Part shown: one piece after another, positions 9,293 to 19,302 of the stretch
Position numbering within the stretch: position 1 is the stretch's first letter
Layout of the letters: each line of letters starts with the position of its first letter
Assembly (NCBI GenBank): GCA_022866045.1
Contig: JALHTW010000007.1
Coordinates: forward strand, 1 to 32,403
Origin: Candidatus Aminicenantota bacterium
Lineage (GTDB): Bacteria; Acidobacteriota; Aminicenantia; Aminicenantales; UBA4085
Direction of reading: 5' to 3'
Length of the DNA stretch: 32,403 nucleotides
Program-made: the position numbers and the translations under genes
Notes under the pieces: generated by a model
Told to the model about the DNA's origin: nothing
What the model saw: only the letters and a program-made list of their open reading frames with translations
Databases searched by the model: none

Positions 9293-11386
9293 TCAGACCT
9301 GACCTCGAATCGATCTTTCCAAAAGCTCCGCCGTGTGGACGGCGCGGACACGGAGTCCACTTCGGTGGCAGCCGCCGCGGATCTGAAGGAGACAGCCCGG
9401 GCAGTCCATGGCGACAACCTCGGCGCCCGTCTTTTCGATGGCGGCGAGCTTGTCCGCGAGCAGGGCGGCCGAGATCTCGGGATTATCCAGGCTGAAGCTT
9501 CCGGCGAAGCCGCAGCATTTGTCCGGCTCTTCCATGTCGAGGATCTCGCTCTGCAGGGCAAGTTCAACGAGTTTTCGGGAAGCCTTCTCGGCTTTCCAAA
9601 GATTCTTATGATGGCAGGAATCATGATAGGTGGCTTTCTGCTTTTGCCGTCCGCTCTTCATCAGGCTTGTCAAGTTCCCAAGCTCATTCTCAAAAATGAA
9701 CCGGCTGAACGGTATCGCCCGACCGGCTAAGTCCCTCGCCTTTTCGGAATCGACGACTTCCCGTCCGCGCCTGGCCAGCATGGTCGTGCACGTCGGGCAG
9801 AGAGTAATGACGGGGCCCTCGACTTTCAATTTTTTCAATAAAGCGGCAAATGCCTCGCCGGACGCTTTTCCGAATCCCGCGTTTGAGGCCGGAAATCCGC
9901 AACACAGGCTTGGTCCGACCTTCACATCATAGCCAAGCTTAGAAAGCACTCGGGCTGCGGCCATCCCGATCTCGGGGTAGAAATGCTCAATCAGGCAGCC
10001 GCCGAAGATCGTGACCGTCCTTTTGGCCGATTTTTCGGCAGCTGCGAGGGGCGCGAATTCCTTTTTGAACACTCTCGAAAAAGGCTTGGCCGCCGGCGCG
10101 GGCAGAGCTCGGAATCGGTCATATTTTTTCATCCAGGCAGGGAGTTTTCGCGAAAAGCCATCCTTTCGGCCGATCACCTTGCGGGCTTTTCGCGCCGCTT
10201 TGAACGCGGCCTGCTGGATTCCCGGGCTGGCCATGACTCCGTCGAAGGCGAAGCGCTTCCACATCGCCGTTCCCGTTTCATTTTTAATGCGTTCGGCCAG
10301 CGCCGTGATCAGGTCCGCGATCCTGATTTTCGTCGGGCAGTATTCCTCGCAGCGGTGGCAGCGCAGACAGACCCTGGCCAATTCTTTCGACTTCTTGAGC
10401 CCATGGATCCAGGCCGTGAACAGAGTGCCGATCCCGCCCATATAGATATGCGAATATTCCTCGCCGCCGATGATCTGATACACGGGGCAGACATTGAGGC
10501 AGGCCGAGCACTTGATGCAGCGGAGGACCTCCCGGAATGTCGGATCGGCCAGCATGTCCGAACGGTGATTATCGAGGAGGATGATATATTGCGGTCCCTG
10601 GTGCGGCCCGGCGATGAATGAAACATAGCTCGTGATCGTCTGGCCCGTCGCGTTTCGCGGCAGGAGTTTGAGGACGAGAAGCGCGTCGTCGACCGCCGGC
10701 AGGACTTTTTCGATGCTCGCCAGGACAATATGAACGGGAGGAACGGTCGTAACCAGCCGGCCGTTGCCTTCGTTGGTGATGAGCATGATCGCGCCGTTTT
10801 CGGCGATGAGCGCGTTCGCGCCCGTCAAGCCGGCCTGGGCGGCGAAGATCTCTTTGCGCATTTCGCTGCGGGCGTTACGGACGAGCGAAGGGATGTCCTC
10901 AGGAACCTGTTTCCCGGTCTTTTCGGAAAAGAGCACAGCCACGTCGTGCCGGGTTAAGTGGATGGCCGGCATGACCATATGTGTCGGCGCTTCGGCGGCG
11001 AGCTGGACGATCCATTCGCCGAGGTCTGTCTCCCGTGCCTCGATGCCGCGTCCGGCGAGAAAGCCGTTCAAGCCGGTCTCTTCGCTGACCATGGACTTGC
11101 CTTTGACCATTTTTTTAATGCTGTGGTCGCGGCAGATCTTGAGGATGAGGTCGTTGGCTTCGGCACCGTCGCGCGCGCGCCAGACGTTACTGCCGTGCGC
11201 CCGGGCTTTATGCTCAAAGCTGGCCAGGAGGTTCTCGTTATGGTCAAGGGCCTTGTCTTTAAGCTCGGCCAGCGCCGTCCGCAGCTCTTCAAAGTCATAG
11301 CCCCGGAGGACGCTTTGGCGCTTAAACTGATAGCTTTGGGAGAAGTCCTGAAGGATCTTTTTGAGGACGGGATTGATCTTTTTCAT
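9293..11386 (-). CDS. LutB-LutA fusion: LUD-domain Fe-S lactate utilisation protein with CCG domains
   Basis: The product is 697 aa and cytoplasmic. It belongs to the LutABC lactate oxidation system, in which LutB carries the LUD domain and Fe-S clusters and LutA carries CCG (heterodisulfide-reductase-like) domains. Residues about 1-280 are the LUD domain (MVSEETGLNGFL, AENGAIMLITNEGN). Two 4Fe-4S motifs follow: C290-x2-C293-x2-C296-x3-C300 and C340-x2-C343-x2-C346-x3-C350. Residues about 456-697 hold two CCG modules, with C464, CC495-496, C530/C533 and C591, CC624-625, C662/C665. In Bacillus these are separate proteins. I start at ATG 11386, not at the in-frame upstream ATG 11446, because this ATG overlaps the LutC stop by 4 nt (ATGA). 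Possible substrates are L-lactate or another 2-hydroxyacid; a glycolate-oxidase-like role is the alternative. Confidence 0.88.
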   Translation of the reverse strand: MKKINPVLKKILQDFSQSYQFKRQSVLRGYDFEELRTALAELKDKALDHNENLLASFEHKARAHGSNVWRARDGAEANDLILKICRDHSIKKMVKGKSMVSEETGLNGFLAGRGIEARETDLGEWIVQLAAEAPTHMVMPAIHLTRHDVAVLFSEKTGKQVPEDIPSLVRNARSEMRKEIFAAQAGLTGANALIAENGAIMLITNEGNGRLVTTVPPVHIVLASIEKVLPAVDDALLVLKLLPRNATGQTITSYVSFIAGPHQGPQYIILLDNHRSDMLADPTFREVLRCIKCSACLNVCPVYQIIGGEEYSHIYMGGIGTLFTAWIHGLKKSKELARVCLRCHRCEEYCPTKIRIADLITALAERIKNETGTAMWKRFAFDGVMASPGIQQAAFKAARKARKVIGRKDGFSRKLPAWMKKYDRFRALPAPAAKPFSRVFKKEFAPLAAAEKSAKRTVTIFGGCLIEHFYPEIGMAAARVLSKLGYDVKVGPSLCCGFPASNAGFGKASGEAFAALLKKLKVEGPVITLCPTCTTMLARRGREVVDSEKARDLAGRAIPFSRFIFENELGNLTSLMKSGRQKQKATYHDSCHHKNLWKAEKASRKLVELALQSEILDMEEPDKCCGFAGSFSLDNPEISAALLADKLAAIEKTGAEVVAMDCPGCLLQIRGGCHRSGLRVRAVHTAELLERSIRGQV

Positions 11387-11916
11387 GTTCCAATCAGCAA
11401 AATGACGAGCCTCGCCGGGCCGTGGACGCCAATCGTCAACTGGCATTCGATGTCAGCGGTCCGGCTCGGCCCGGTGACGAGCGAGACCTGGGGCGAGGAA
11501 ATGTCAGTCCTGGCCAAATGGCTCGTAATTTCCGGAGCGATGGCCTCGAGATGAGGAACGATCTTTTTCCTTTCCAGCAGGCAGAGGCAGGTTTCCGGCA
11601 GCGTCCAGACGTTTTTCTCCTCGTCGCTCGCATCGAAATGAATAAGCGTCCCGGTCTCGGCGATCCCGTAATCCGCTGAGACGATCCCGGCGTCGACCCA
11701 GATGGAATCCGCCGAGAGCTGGCCGCTAAGGCTGGAAAATTCCTTATCGAACGGGTCGCGCTTTTTGAGGGCTTCGGAAATTATAGCCCTCTTGATCTCG
11801 TTTTTGGTGAAAAAATCTCTCAGGAATTGAACGGCCCTCTGAACACTCGGGAACAGCTCGACCTCGGCGTCCGCAACTTTCGCTTTTTCTATGAATTTAT
11901 CGATATTCGCCAGCAT
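11383..11916 (-). CDS. lutC: LutC-like LUD-domain protein
   Basis: The product is 177 aa, a single LUD domain as in LutC, the third component of the LutABC lactate dehydrogenase complex. The visible pattern is VSADYGIAETGTLIHF (about 80-95), then LPETCLCLLERKKIVPHLE and SLVTGPSRTADIECQLTIGVHGP, both strongly family-like. It is slightly shorter than many LutC proteins. The ATG used has no clear ribosome site; no in-frame ATG, GTG or TTG lies in the roughly 36 nt before it. It sits 95 nt after the aldolase stop and overlaps the LutB-LutA gene by 4 nt, so these two are translationally coupled. Confidence 0.85.
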   Translation of the reverse strand: MLANIDKFIEKAKVADAEVELFPSVQRAVQFLRDFFTKNEIKRAIISEALKKRDPFDKEFSSLSGQLSADSIWVDAGIVSADYGIAETGTLIHFDASDEEKNVWTLPETCLCLLERKKIVPHLEAIAPEITSHLARTDISSPQVSLVTGPSRTADIECQLTIGVHGPARLVILLIGT

Positions 11917-12011
11917 ATATTTAATCAGCGTCGGGCGGGTGGCACCAACCGGAGCGCCCCCTCGCCCGCAGCGGAAGGAACCCCTAAAATTTATGTCCGT
12001 CGCTCATTTTT

Positions 12012-13334
12012 TTACCATTTCTTCGCTTTCTTGGGTTCCATCTTCCGCAGATCCAGGCCCCGCTCGAAAGCGCCGATGCGGTAGAGGCAAATCTCGCGGA
12101 GCGAGGACGGATGATGAAGCACTTCGGACAGCGATTGATGCCCCACCGCCCACACGCCGCCGCCCCTCACGACCACGACTTTGTATTCATGGAGCAGCCG
12201 GATGAGCGTATCTTTATCCACCTTGGGCGGAACGACGGGAATGACCAAATAAAGGAAGCTTCCCTCGGCGTCGATCGGCACGATCCGGTCGTGCGGCGCC
12301 TCCTCGCCCGGATAGCGGAAATGCGAATGGGCTTCGGCTTCGGGCAGATAACAGTGCATGACGGTCTGGAAGTCGGTTCCGGCATAGATCGTCTTGTGAA
12401 GGGCAAGCTCGGGCGAATCCGATGGATTCGATCTCAACGACACCTTGAGCAGCGGACCGCCGACCTCGCGCGGCATCGAGGCTTTCGGCGCGTAAAGCAA
12501 ATAGTTCACGCCCCGCACCGACATCGATCCCGTGTGGAACGGAGATAACCGCGATTCGAAGATGCGCCCACCCGCTTTATGGAATTCTCTGAGGATTTCG
12601 GTTTCCTCCGGGAATTCGTTGACCTCGTCGCTAGCGACGGCGTAGGGATCCGGCGGATAAGCAAAGAATGAGTCCGGCCCGGCTTTCAGCCGCTCGCGCA
12701 GCGCTTCGACATCGATGCCCAGTTTTCGGGCCGTTCTGACGACCGCGCCCGCATTGTTGGCCAGGCACTGGAGGAAAAACGCCTCTTTGAGAGTCTGTCC
12801 CCGGGCGAACGTTCCGTGCGTCTGGATGACCGTTACAGGGTGGTCGGCCAATCGTTTCGGGATGATCTCGGCCATCTCCGGCGAACCGCTCGGCACGGCG
12901 ACCCAGTCCACGTGGATGTGGCCGCCCAGATGATACCAGCCGAGCGGGTCAATGGGCACGAAATCCGCCGGCTTGTTGGGTTTGTCCGCGTCATCGAACG
13001 TAACGATGGCCAGGTCTTTCGTGTGGGCGTGGATCGATGCCCGGACGCCCTCGATATTCAGGATCCGCTGATGAATGTCCGTTTCGGAAGAAGCCTTATA
13101 GTAGCCATAGTCGGTGTCCGTGGCGGACAGAAAGCAGATCTGGTCAGGCTCGAGGTCGCCTTTTTGCGATCCCGAAGAGGTGATGATGATCTGATCTTCG
13201 TCGGCTTCGCCCTTGACCCGGATGGCCATGTTTCCACTGTGGCTGTCCTGAATGTCGTAGATAAGCGAGGCGCGGCCGATAGATTGAAAAAGCCGCAAAA
13301 TTTCTTCGCTGACTTTCCATTTTCGCCGGTTCAT
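12012..13334 (-). CDS. Tandem class II aldolase/adducin-domain protein
   Basis: The product is 440 aa, about twice the usual length of this family, and contains two class II aldolase domains in a row. Domain 1 (about 10-215) keeps the zinc-site residues expected from fuculose-1-phosphate aldolase: Glu84 (SSET), His102 and His104 (IHAHT), and His173 (QTHG), with the SGNM and SSGSQKG phosphate-loop-like segments. Domain 2 (about 245-425) has Glu309 and His327 but Tyr329 and Gly391/392 where the other His ligands would be, so it is probably non-catalytic. Family activities are retro-aldol cleavage of sugar phosphates, decarboxylation or epimerisation; which one applies is not shown. The start codon overlaps the AOR stop by 4 nt (ATGA), so it is co-translated with the AOR. 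Confidence 0.85.
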   Translation of the reverse strand: MNRRKWKVSEEILRLFQSIGRASLIYDIQDSHSGNMAIRVKGEADEDQIIITSSGSQKGDLEPDQICFLSATDTDYGYYKASSETDIHQRILNIEGVRASIHAHTKDLAIVTFDDADKPNKPADFVPIDPLGWYHLGGHIHVDWVAVPSGSPEMAEIIPKRLADHPVTVIQTHGTFARGQTLKEAFFLQCLANNAGAVVRTARKLGIDVEALRERLKAGPDSFFAYPPDPYAVASDEVNEFPEETEILREFHKAGGRIFESRLSPFHTGSMSVRGVNYLLYAPKASMPREVGGPLLKVSLRSNPSDSPELALHKTIYAGTDFQTVMHCYLPEAEAHSHFRYPGEEAPHDRIVPIDAEGSFLYLVIPVVPPKVDKDTLIRLLHEYKVVVVRGGGVWAVGHQSLSEVLHHPSSLREICLYRIGAFERGLDLRKMEPKKAKKW

Positions 13335-15594: not shown

Positions 15595-16380
15595 TTATCC
15601 TCCGCCCATCAAAGGGAAGATGGAAACAACATCGCCGTCTTTGATTTTGGAATCCAGGCCGGTCGCTGCCGGCGGACTAGCCCCATTGACCATGACGACC
15701 AGATGCGGCTTGAGCTGATCGCTGGCGAAAACTTCGGCGCGCCGGGCGGGCGTGTCGCACAACGCATTGAGGAGCTGGCGAAGGGTCACGCTCCGGGAAA
15801 ATTCTAGATCCCTTTCTTTTAATCCGAAAATTTCCCGGAAATAGGCGAAAAATTTGACTTTGACCGAGATCTCGTTCATTCTTATTATGCTTTTCGCCAG
15901 ATCCGCCCTCTCATTTTCTTCGAATATCTTAACGGGGAAAGGGTCAAAAATTCTCCCATATTCCGCGACCAGGTTCCGCCTGATGACCAGGAGAGCGGAG
16001 CGCTGCTCATCGAAAAGCGCTTCTTTGAGGGCGGGCCAGAGGCCTTTTCCTTCGAGTTCAAGCTGTCCGATTTCGTCCACAACCAAAAGGTCTGATGTCC
16101 GGCTCCGGAGGATGATATTCTCCGCCTGGGCCAGCCCTTCAGGAAGAAGGCAAAAGGCCCCGACTTTCTGCCCATCTCCGCAGCCTATTCTCCGAAGGAA
16201 CGGCCTGCTTCTCCCTTCTTGAATGTCAAAGAGATCATATCCCGCGGTCTCTCTCCCCTCCATCACTCTCAGACTGAGGAACCCATCCATGCTGACTCCC
16301 GCCGAGCCCAGCTCTTCGGTAAGGCTTCGGAGGAACGTCGTCTTCCCCGATTTGACAGCCCCCGTGAGGATAAAAATCAT
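15595..16380 (-). CDS. THEP1-like P-loop NTPase fused to a MoaD-like sulfur carrier
   Basis: The product is 261 aa, a fusion. Residues 1-168 form a small NTPase of the THEP1/DUF265 type: Walker A GAVKSGKT (7-14) and a Walker B-like VVDEIGQLEL (100-109). Residues about 171-261 are a beta-grasp MoaD/ThiS-type domain (VKVKFFAYFREIFG, VVMVNGA, DGDVVSIFP) ending in a free Gly-Gly-Gly tail, as used for thiocarboxylate formation in molybdopterin synthase. An internal Met at 168 has no ribosome site before it, so a real fusion is more likely than two genes. Promoter boxes TTGACT/TATTCT place the -10 only 6 nt from the ATG, so the transcript is probably leaderless. Its position beside the AOR gene suggests a role in tungsten-pterin synthesis; the NTPase's part in this is an inference. 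Confidence 0.85.
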   Translation of the reverse strand: MIFILTGAVKSGKTTFLRSLTEELGSAGVSMDGFLSLRVMEGRETAGYDLFDIQEGRSRPFLRRIGCGDGQKVGAFCLLPEGLAQAENIILRSRTSDLLVVDEIGQLELEGKGLWPALKEALFDEQRSALLVIRRNLVAEYGRIFDPFPVKIFEENERADLAKSIIRMNEISVKVKFFAYFREIFGLKERDLEFSRSVTLRQLLNALCDTPARRAEVFASDQLKPHLVVMVNGASPPAATGLDSKIKDGDVVSIFPLMGGG

Positions 16381-16654: not shown

Positions 16655-18808
16655 CTACCGGATGATGATCCGGGATTGGCTGGTCGTAAGGTTGACGCTC
16701 CCGCCGGCGGCGCTGATCGCCGAGACGTTCGTGACGGTGATGTAACACTCCCCTGGGCTCTTCGCCTCAAAACGCAGCGTAGCCAGGGTCCCGCCGCCCT
16801 TGATCCCTTTCCCGGTCTGGGGACTGGAAAAGCCGATCGTGCAGATCCCCGCGTTGTTATCGAAGTTCTTGAGGAACGGCGGCTTCTCGCCGAATTGCCT
16901 GGTCATTCCGCCTTCGGCCACGTCCTTCAGATTGATCACCTTGGGATTGTAGTTGAGGACGAGAGACATGTTGCCGATCTCCTGGTCGCTGCGGAGATTG
17001 ACGGAGACCGTGAACTCACCGCCGGCCGGACGCTCGTAATTGGCCGGGCTGAGCGTGATCTGGTTCAACCCCAGGTCCTGCTGCGGACGCCTCGCCTGGA
17101 GCGCCCGTTCCATATCGCGGATATCGAGTGGCCGTCCGAGCAATTCCTCTTCAAAAACGCCGCTCGCCGTAGACCCCGTATCCACGTCCACCCAGAGAGG
17201 CTTGTCGTCCTCCGCCGTCAAGGGAATCGAGCGGATGATATAGGGCGTGATCGTCAGGATGACATCGGTCTGCTCAAGGGTCGTGTCCTCGGCGCCGAAC
17301 AGCCGGCCCAGCACCGGGAGGTCTTTAAGCCCGGGGATGCCCTTGAGGGTCTTTCTTTCTTCGTCTCTCAACAAGCCGGCGATGAGAGTGGTCTCGCCGT
17401 CCTTGAGCCGGAGAACATTCTTGACTTCCCGCGTGTTGATGATGGGAATGTCGGCGTATCCCTTGCCGCCGATGGATGTGACCTTGAGCTCGAGCGAAAT
17501 CGTGACTTCCTTCTCGAGATGGACCGAGGGCTTGATCTTGACCTCGATGCCGACGTCCTGCTGTTCGAAGTTCGTCAGAGGCTGCGAAGCATAGCCGCCC
17601 GCCGCGAACGGGGAGAACGTCGTCCGCGGAATGGGGATTTTCTGGCCGACGAGATGCCGCATTTCCTCGTCCGAGACGCCCCGAAGACGGGGCTGGGCGA
17701 TGACCTTGGTATCCGTGTCCGACTCCAGGAATTGGAGGAACGAAACAGGCAGGCTGATCGAAAAATTCTCGGCTTTCGACAGATCGATGTTCTTCAAGTT
17801 GAACCATCCCGTGGACGTCGTGTCCGTCGAGGACGTCGGCGGCCCTCCATATCTCAGGCCGACCATGTTCGTATCGAAGCTGACCCCCAATTGCCGGAGC
17901 TTGAGCCGCGAGACCTCCATGATCTCGAGGTCGATGACGACCTCGGCTCGGGGCTTGTCCCAAGCCCGGATGAGCTTTTCGGCGAGCTCCACCACCTGCG
18001 GCGTGTCGCGGATGGTGAGTGAGTTCAGGTTCTTGTCGGAACTGATCGTCGGCACCTTGGCCGTTCCGCGAAGCATCGAGATGAGAGAATTCTGCATGTC
18101 CTGGGCGACGACGTTGGATAGGTAGAAGGTCCTGATGACGTTCGCTTCGTACTGGATCCGCTTTATCGGGTTGTCGGGGACGATGACCACCGTCCTCTCA
18201 TCGACGATCCGGTAGAAATTCTTCGTCGCGACGCAGAGCGACCGGACAGCCTGCTCGAAGGTCATGTTGGTCAGGTCGGTCGTGAACGGGACGTCGCGGA
18301 ACTGCTCGTCGAAGATCATGCTGATGCCGGCGGTCTTGCCGAGGGCGAGAAAGATCGAGCGGAGGCTCGTTTCCACGGGAAACTTCAGCTGGAGGTTTTC
18401 TTCCTTGGCCTTAAGCTTGATCGGGAACTCGATCTTCTCTTTCCGGGGCGCCGTGTCCTTGGGAGCCTCGGTGACCGCTGCCAGCGCTTCCCTGACGATC
18501 GCTGTGTCCCGCGGGTTATAAGAAATGGATTTGGCGTATTCGGCCTTGGCCTCTTCCTTCTTGCCGAGGGCAATGAACTTCCGGGCCTCCTGGAGATGGA
18601 AAAGACTGGCCGAGATCTTCGCCCGCCCCAACGCCAACCGGTATACGGGCTCTTTGGGATTCTCGAGACTGGCTTTCTCGTAGTATTGGATGGCGTCTTC
18701 CCACTGCTTATTCAATTCCGCCTGGGTGCCGAGCCGGTATTGCGGGGTCAAGCCCACGCACGCCCAAAAGCTCAAGGCTATGACGATCAGCAACGCGTTC
18801 TTCTTCAT
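16655..18808 (-). CDS. TPR-secretin-cohesin outer-membrane channel (PilQ/GspD type)
   Basis: The product is 717 aa and would form the outer-membrane secretin ring of the pilus or secretion machine. The N-terminus is MKKN plus a hydrophobic stretch ending FWAC, probably a lipoprotein signal. Residues about 25-115 carry TPR-like helices, unusual for a secretin. Then come an STN/N0-type domain (about 135-222), an N1-type domain (about 228-292, with LNSLTIRDTPQVVELAEKLI), and the secretin core (about 300-535) ending in GIPGLKDLPVLGRLFG and VILTITPYII. The last 130 residues (about 588-717) resemble a cohesin-type beta-sandwich (GEFTVSVNLRSDQEIGNMSLVLNY). I start at ATG 18808, which overlaps the preceding stop by ATGA; an upstream in-frame ATG at 18898 lies inside the pilP-like gene. 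It is the last gene of the operon. Confidence 0.9.
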   Translation of the reverse strand: MKKNALLIVIALSFWACVGLTPQYRLGTQAELNKQWEDAIQYYEKASLENPKEPVYRLALGRAKISASLFHLQEARKFIALGKKEEAKAEYAKSISYNPRDTAIVREALAAVTEAPKDTAPRKEKIEFPIKLKAKEENLQLKFPVETSLRSIFLALGKTAGISMIFDEQFRDVPFTTDLTNMTFEQAVRSLCVATKNFYRIVDERTVVIVPDNPIKRIQYEANVIRTFYLSNVVAQDMQNSLISMLRGTAKVPTISSDKNLNSLTIRDTPQVVELAEKLIRAWDKPRAEVVIDLEIMEVSRLKLRQLGVSFDTNMVGLRYGGPPTSSTDTTSTGWFNLKNIDLSKAENFSISLPVSFLQFLESDTDTKVIAQPRLRGVSDEEMRHLVGQKIPIPRTTFSPFAAGGYASQPLTNFEQQDVGIEVKIKPSVHLEKEVTISLELKVTSIGGKGYADIPIINTREVKNVLRLKDGETTLIAGLLRDEERKTLKGIPGLKDLPVLGRLFGAEDTTLEQTDVILTITPYIIRSIPLTAEDDKPLWVDVDTGSTASGVFEEELLGRPLDIRDMERALQARRPQQDLGLNQITLSPANYERPAGGEFTVSVNLRSDQEIGNMSLVLNYNPKVINLKDVAEGGMTRQFGEKPPFLKNFDNNAGICTIGFSSPQTGKGIKGGGTLATLRFEAKSPGECYITVTNVSAISAAGGSVNLTTSQSRIIIR

Positions 18809-19302
18809 TTCCGTTCTCCTTCCAGGGCGAACTTCTGAGATTTCTCGTCCAGGCCCTGGATCTCGATTTCGCCGGCCGCGATCTTCGCGACCTTCCATGC
18901 CGAACCGAGCATGTCCCCTTCTCCCACGGCCACGGCCTGCCCTTCGAAAAGAACGAGGGCGATGAATTTGCTCTTGGCTTGAATGTAGCCGATATACCGC
19001 AGGTTCAAGACTGCTTCCTGAGGCGCCGCCGGAACGGCCCCCTCCCCTTGGTTCATGTTCGGCCTTTTCGCTTCGTCGGCCCCAGAAGGCGTCGCCATTG
19101 GTTCAACTGAGCTGCTGGGGACAAAAATATCCCTCTTCGCGAAAGCGGCCGCCCGCTCCTTCTTCTGAAGCAGGTCCATCCGGATCAAGAATTTCTGCGC
19201 CTTCAAAGCGCCGGGCTTTTCGGCGGAGGACGTTTTGTCCTGGCTCAGGCCAAAGACCGCACCGGCGAGCCCACAGATGAAAAGGATATGTTTAATCTTC
19301 AT
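18805..19302 (-). CDS. PilP-like inner-membrane/periplasmic pilus assembly protein
   Basis: The product is 165 aa with an N-terminal hydrophobic segment (residues 5-20), then a Pro/Ala-rich linker. A C-terminal beta domain has LNLRYIGYIQAKSKFIALVLFEGQAVAVGEGDMLG, the pattern of PilP and GspC homology regions. In the family it links the inner-membrane PilMNO complex to the secretin. It overlaps the PilO-like gene by 11 nt and the secretin gene by 4 nt. Sequence similarity alone is weak; assignment rests on pattern plus position. Confidence 0.75.
   Translation of the reverse strand: MKIKHILFICGLAGAVFGLSQDKTSSAEKPGALKAQKFLIRMDLLQKKERAAAFAKRDIFVPSSSVEPMATPSGADEAKRPNMNQGEGAVPAAPQEAVLNLRYIGYIQAKSKFIALVLFEGQAVAVGEGDMLGSAWKVAKIAAGEIEIQGLDEKSQKFALEGERK

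Follow-up and report, generated by a model that had tools for sequence, protein, structure and literature searches.

A single reading frame in an uncultured Aminicenantia bacterium encodes a THEP1-type P-loop NTPase joined to a MoaD-like sulfur carrier, and lies next to a gene for an aldehyde:ferredoxin oxidoreductase (AOR) of the tungsten family. We analysed this gene within the window, i.e., the whole 32,403-nt stretch of DNA, which comes from an Acidobacteriota/Aminicenantia metagenome-assembled genome (MAG; 3.28 Mb, 94% complete), and found the fusion to be genuine. Its product is probably a bipartite maturation protein that serves the neighbouring AOR, composed of a WorX-type carrier and a THEP1-type NTPase. 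The carrier is already known, and we rate the recurrent NTPase partner as what is new; a literature search of open-licence papers found neither an NTPase–MoaD fusion nor a link between THEP1 and AOR. The occurrence of one THEP1/NTPase_1 lineage with Mo/W maturation genes, either fused to them or encoded alongside, in several separate settings suggests a specific hypothesis for its role that can be tested. The features of the window that bear on this reading are listed in Table 1.

Table 1. The fused gene, its two domains and neighbouring genes in the window
Feature	Position	Strand	Evidence or remark
Fused gene, THEP1-type NTPase + MoaD-like sulfur carrier	15595..16380 (including stop)	-	261 aa, single frame
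NTPase_1/THEP1 domain, residues 1-167	15880..16380	-	PF03266; Foldseek 2i3b, 1ye8; Walker A 7-14, Walker B DE 102-103
MoaD/ThiS-like (WorX-type) carrier domain, residues 168-261	15595..15879	-	PF02597, TIGR01687, Foldseek SAMP1/MoaD; free C-terminal GGG
Aldehyde:ferredoxin oxidoreductase (AOR/WOR large subunit), 617 aa	13331..15184	-	AFOR_C 2.9e-118, AFOR_N 1.5e-74
Two-domain class II aldolase/adducin protein	12012..13334	-	PF00596; conserved next to AOR
LUD-domain protein (LutC/LdhG-like)	11383..11916	-	PF02589
LUD + 4Fe-4S + CCG protein, L-lactate dehydrogenase LdhH-like	9293..11446	-	NF045670, 766 bits, below cutoff 800
Secretin of type II/IV pilus-like cluster	16655..18898	-	Directly upstream of fusion; conserved neighbour

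The sequence-only reading of this DNA had described one frame combining an NTPase with a complete MoaD domain. This description was borne out, with the addition that the frame lies on the minus strand, and the Walker A motif (G7-AVKS-GKT14), the Walker B motif (VVDEIGQLEL, residues 100–109) and the C-terminal GGG (within MGGG, which provides a free diglycine) are located where that reading had placed them. In comparisons with Pfam, PF03266 (NTPase_1) matched residues 3–141 (E 1.4e-19, 71 bits, curated cutoff 23.9) and PF02597 (ThiS) matched residues 175–261 (E 2.2e-12, 47.8 bits, cutoff 22.5). The MoaD half also passed TIGR01687, moaD_arch (59.1 bits, cutoff 49.5). The NTPase did not reach the NCBIfam equivalog PRK13695, which is narrower than PF03266 (63.3 of 156 bits), and the MoaD domain reached neither the equivalog TIGR01682 (23.6 bits, cutoff 66.15) nor SAMP1, NF041918 (57.7 of 60). 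Alignment of NTPase homologues showed that G7, G12, K13, D102, E103, G105 and W115 were invariant among the 37–38 sequences aligned at those positions (38/38 for D102 and E103), and that the GGG tail was conserved alongside the Walker residues. An AlphaFold2 model based on 67 sequences (the window and its relatives) had a mean pLDDT of 94.9 and a pTM of 0.84; confidence was low only at the extreme C-terminal end. Foldseek matched the NTPase half of the predicted structure to human NTPCR (2i3b, E 6e-9) and THEP1 (1ye8, E 1e-6), and the second half to SAMP1/MoaD structures. The final NTPase helix (155–168) of the model passes straight into the first strand of MoaD (170–177), with no flexible linker between them.

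The possibility that a sequencing frameshift had joined two genes was ruled out by comparison with 142 Aminicenantia genomes. Full-length fusions were present in G085 and G086, which belong to another genus of the same family (58 and 57% identity, no stops), and a separate, fourth fusion was found in a different family (G045), where residues 60–261 are retained and the first 59 residues were lost at a contig end. In most relatives, the NTPase and MoaD are separate genes in the same order, and these genes overlap in several of the relatives that were read base by base, e.g., G048, G057 and G055. A tree of the concatenated domains grouped the fusions of the window, G085 and G086 in one clade (99/94), apart from that of G045; the fusion arose at least twice. 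Among 396 genomes sampled across the phylum, no NTPase–MoaD fusion was found outside the class. It had also been argued that, with no internal ribosome site, the frame should not yield two products. This argument is strong for G085 and G086, whose junction codons (in G085, CTT CTG CGG GGC GCA GGC GGG TTC TCC GTC AAG) include no ATG, GTG or TTG, so that the MoaD half can be produced there only within the fusion. It is weak in the window, where an in-frame ATG occurs at codon 168 (15877–15879), just ahead of the MoaD domain, because the fusion gene's own start lacks a Shine–Dalgarno sequence just as this ATG does. The MoaD of these genes is thus not a standalone small protein, being fused and, in G085 and G086, devoid of an internal start codon.

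The AOR gene is the next one downstream, separated from the fusion by 410 bp and sharing its strand, and its product carries the CxxCxxxC and DSLGVC (DxxGxC) motifs. The conserved order in the fetched loci is secretin, NTPase, MoaD, AOR and class II aldolase. A domain search for further fusions and their linkage to AOR, as the sequence-only reading had suggested, yielded those of G085, G086 and G045; AOR directly followed the fusion in 3/3 testable loci, which is the opposite of a fusion that never occurs with AOR genes. AOR also directly followed the unfused NTPase–MoaD pair in 20 of 22 testable loci, and it adjoined the MoaD gene in 23/25 testable loci overall. Exceptions were G044, where NTPase, ThiF and MoaD lie in a row on a short contig, and G046, which has no AOR within 8 kb of the pair. 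Outside the class, G324 (L135) has MoaD, AOR and aldolase without the NTPase; the NTPase is therefore not universally needed. Conversely, G011 has NTPase, AOR and aldolase without MoaD or secretin. In the G058 locus (L117:5985-6776), the order is secretin, NTPase, AOR and aldolase; the NTPase frame has 264 aa, and no MoaD could be recognised between it and the AOR. At two loci of the Saccharicenans type (L003:5814-6275 and L007:7956-8357), the frame upstream of MoaD resembles the C-terminal part of the NTPase (VAEYGKI-like), giving the impression of a decayed NTPase beside a retained MoaD.

Close relatives of the NTPase are also linked to other Mo/W enzymes. Thirteen NTPase loci adjoin genes for XdhC and a MocA-like transferase, which act in the maturation of molybdenum hydroxylases, without MoaD, and most of them have a molybdenum-hydroxylase subunit nearby; these loci include L060:3-3013, L053, L055, L107–L111, L114, L115, L118 and L120. 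In an example locus, XdhC was closest to the XdhC-family AOR maturation factor NF045664 (284 bits, below the cutoff of 350) and MocA to MocA/YgfJ TIGR03310 (184 bits, below the cutoff of 186). A similar arrangement is found in SDMH loci, in which yqeB (XdhC-like) and ygfJ (MocA-like) cluster with the accessory gene yqeC (PMC2276186); the NTPase, however, belongs to PF03266, and no YqeC family was matched. An AOR of another type adjoins the NTPase in G016, G019 and G020. G016 and G019 also have MobB at a distance of about 2 kb, and G020 has the AOR alone. Twelve further NTPase copies have a neighbourhood without a recognised Mo/W gene, and in G018 and G038 the NTPase is present and no AOR or ThiS/MoaD was detected in the genome. 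On the NTPase tree, gene contexts were strongly clustered (5 changes vs 17 in shuffles). The loci L095, L096, L097, L100, L101 and L102, from other Acidobacteriota and from G079 of Aminicenantia, have NTPase_1 at the C-terminus of frames of 400–640 aa whose N-terminal regions had no Pfam match. As a comparison, the long frames of the other Acidobacteriota (L095–L102) were uninformative, their N-terminal regions being unrecognised.

These contexts bear on the alternative that the MoaD half alone serves the AOR and that the NTPase is a neighbour from the secretin/pilus cluster, fused through a lost stop between overlapping genes and sharing no function with the carrier. Nearly every locus of the window type has the secretin immediately upstream, including three (G039, G040 and G089) in which the NTPase is beside the secretin only, with no recognised MoaD or AOR, and the Saccharicenans-type loci retain secretin and MoaD with no NTPase detected. 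We nevertheless consider this alternative unlikely: no secretin was found within the fetched stretches of the 13 XdhC–MocA loci, in G016 and G019 the NTPase accompanies another AOR with MobB nearby, G011 combines the NTPase with AOR in a locus lacking both MoaD and secretin, the fusion has two or more origins, and every catalytic residue of the NTPase is kept. The secretin is probably outside the function of the fusion. In the window, it contains TPR and a C-terminal cohesin-type domain and is the last gene of the type II/IV pilus-like cluster.

The carrier half corresponds to a protein that has been described before. A role in tungsten cofactor synthesis was proposed for AOR-linked MoaD by Iyer et al. 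in 2006 (PMC1779556), and this protein is called WorX in a 2026 classification of WOR enzymes (PMC13328260). The aorD and aorE genes of Aromatoleum are similar (PMC6365974), and a ubiquitin-like carrier of Thermococcus takes part in tungsten cofactor synthesis (PMC11323500). Like WorX, the MoaD half of the fusion is a distinct MoaD/ThiS-like protein encoded beside the AOR large subunit and thought to serve the pyranopterin cofactor. The neighbours described in PMC1779556 and PMC13328260 are MoeB, MoaE, MoeA and redox partners, together with a MoaD–AOR fusion in Azoarcus; neither an NTPase partner nor an NTPase–MoaD fusion appeared in the passages searched. MoaX of Mycobacterium tuberculosis, a MoaD–MoaE fusion, likewise joins MoaD to another domain in one chain (PMC4326299). 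In MoaX the MoaD part is N-terminal and cleavage is required to free its GG, whereas the fusion described here requires no cleavage, because MoaD is C-terminal and its GGG is free.

The NTPase half belongs to the same Pfam family as THEP1 of Aquifex (aq_1292, 1ye8) and human NTPCR (2i3b), and shares with them the RecA-like fold (as modelled), the Walker A motif and a Walker B motif containing DE. Its subfamily differs in its association with Mo/W enzymes and in bearing a C-terminal MoaD. Structures have been solved for THEP1/NTPase_1 proteins, the human member included, and their NTPase activity is slow; they are not known to have an assigned role. A role related to nucleic acids has been guessed for THEP1/NTPCR (PMC1079890). 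The fusion NTPase also resembles MobB (PF03205) in being a small P-loop NTPase linked to the Mo cofactor, and a MobB-type role had been suggested for it. Membership of the MobB family did not hold: PF03205 was not matched at E 0.001, the fold matches were THEP1/NTPCR, BLASTP of the fusion against one MobB from Aminicenantia gave E 0.13, and true MobB genes stand separately in 95/142 Aminicenantia genomes. It is possible that the NTPase acts in a MobB-like manner as a generic maturation NTPase. The known role of MobB concerns the dinucleotide cofactor, which archaeal AORs are not known to contain.

As a whole, the gene context strongly suggests a role in Mo/W cofactor maturation, as had been proposed for the AOR. 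The best and most economical reading of these sequence comparisons is that the NTPase is a maturation NTPase of Mo/W enzymes, which would work with an AOR-dedicated carrier in one operon type and became fused to it in a few genomes. The C-terminal MoaD/WorX domain would carry sulfur, as a C-terminal thiocarboxylate formed after adenylation by a ThiF/MoeB-type E1, toward the pyranopterin dithiolene. The N-terminal NTPase would bind and hydrolyse NTP. The analogy of its relatives beside XdhC/MocA suggests that it may support a late step such as handling of the cofactor or its insertion into the apo-enzyme. The fusion would hold NTPase and MoaD at a fixed 1:1 ratio, and the overlapping genes of relatives probably do likewise.

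A more direct connection, in which the NTPase would be dedicated to MoaD as its energy-coupled activator or gate, e.g., by regulating how the GGG tail reaches E1 or a pterin-binding partner, seems improbable to us. It would fit the observation that precisely these two genes have fused repeatedly and often overlap, the direct helix-to-strand junction predicted by the model, and the consecutive NTPase, ThiF and MoaD genes of G044. Close NTPase relatives, however, lack a MoaD partner in G011, G058 and the 13 XdhC loci, and they are also present in G018 and G038, where neither ThiS nor AOR was detected; AOR-linked MoaD occurs elsewhere without the NTPase, as in G324 and in PMC1779556. The earlier suggestion of a dedicated activator is thus unsupported. 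MoaD is known to be activated through adenylation by a ThiF/MoeB E1 and not through P-loop chemistry; for this reason, and because the NTPase often occurs without MoaD, we favour a late step over activation of MoaD.

The remainder of the cofactor pathway is sparse in the source genome, which has three AORs and a single ThiS/MoaD, namely the fused one. No MoaA (C-domain), MoaC, MoaE (PF02391) or MoeA was detected in this 94% complete MAG, where the sole MoCF domain is that of CinA; the substrate of the carrier is therefore unaccounted for there. The only ThiF found is of the short, 211-aa type, and there is no dedicated MoeB beside the fusion gene. The absence of MoaA, MoaC, MoaE and MoeA reflects either real loss or unbinned contigs. 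In relatives such as G076, the moeA, moaA and moaC genes are clustered, so that a single missing stretch could account for the lack of all three, and incompleteness of the MAG could be behind part of the missing genes. MoaA, MoaC and MoeA were, however, missing in 5 of 13 well-covered genomes with an NTPase–MoaD–AOR operon, where incompleteness would predict 0.8; all four of MoaA, MoaC, MoaE and MoeA were lacking in 42 genomes that carry an AOR.

The usual partner of the carrier is missing more widely, since MoaE (PF02391) was absent from 136 of the 142 Aminicenantia genomes and found in 6; it was present in just 5 of the 75 that have MoaA, MoaC and MoeA. A hidden MoaE was sought in the moaA–moaC–moeA cluster of G076 (L086), and none was seen among its eight annotated neighbours (PBP/permease/ABC transporter, MoeA, MoaA, MoaC, MobB and ThiF). 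The lack of MoaE in a cofactor-making route is itself not new: earlier reports describe it in acetogens (PMC5039349) and in Geobacter metallireducens, whose genes include moaD and moeB (PMC2700814). The present data sharpen the question raised by those reports of how the pyranopterin is completed in bacteria with AOR and AOR-linked MoaD but no MoaE. That NTPase–MoaD might form the core of a MoaE-independent tungstopterin assembly or insertion system, with the NTPase instead of MoaE as partner of the AOR-dedicated carrier, is a conjecture we regard as very unlikely. If true, it would help to explain how the cofactor is completed in AOR bacteria that have MoaA, MoaC and MoeA without MoaE, and would give the orphan THEP1/NTPCR family its first pathway role.

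It is likewise highly doubtful that the MoaD domain of the fusion serves to modify or regulate the AOR by SAMP-like conjugation instead of carrying sulfur for the cofactor: Haloferax SAMP1 is among its best structural matches, Thermococcus ubiquitin-like proteins perform both jobs (PMC11323500) and genes for cPMP synthesis were undetected in the host, yet the annotated neighbours include no JAMM protease or conjugation gene, AOR-linked MoaD is generally found with cofactor genes, and the domain passed the moaD_arch cutoff and not that of SAMP1.

Promoter and terminator scans around the fusion gene gave consensus matches only, and a search of the window for a Moco/Tuco riboswitch found none, giving only a tRNA at 27–100. 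The class II aldolase, LUD (LutC-like) and LdhH-like genes at 9293–13334 form a possible operon for making an aldehyde and oxidising it to lactate and pyruvate. Considering the LUD and LdhH-like genes downstream, the AOR may be part of aldehyde-to-lactate metabolism.
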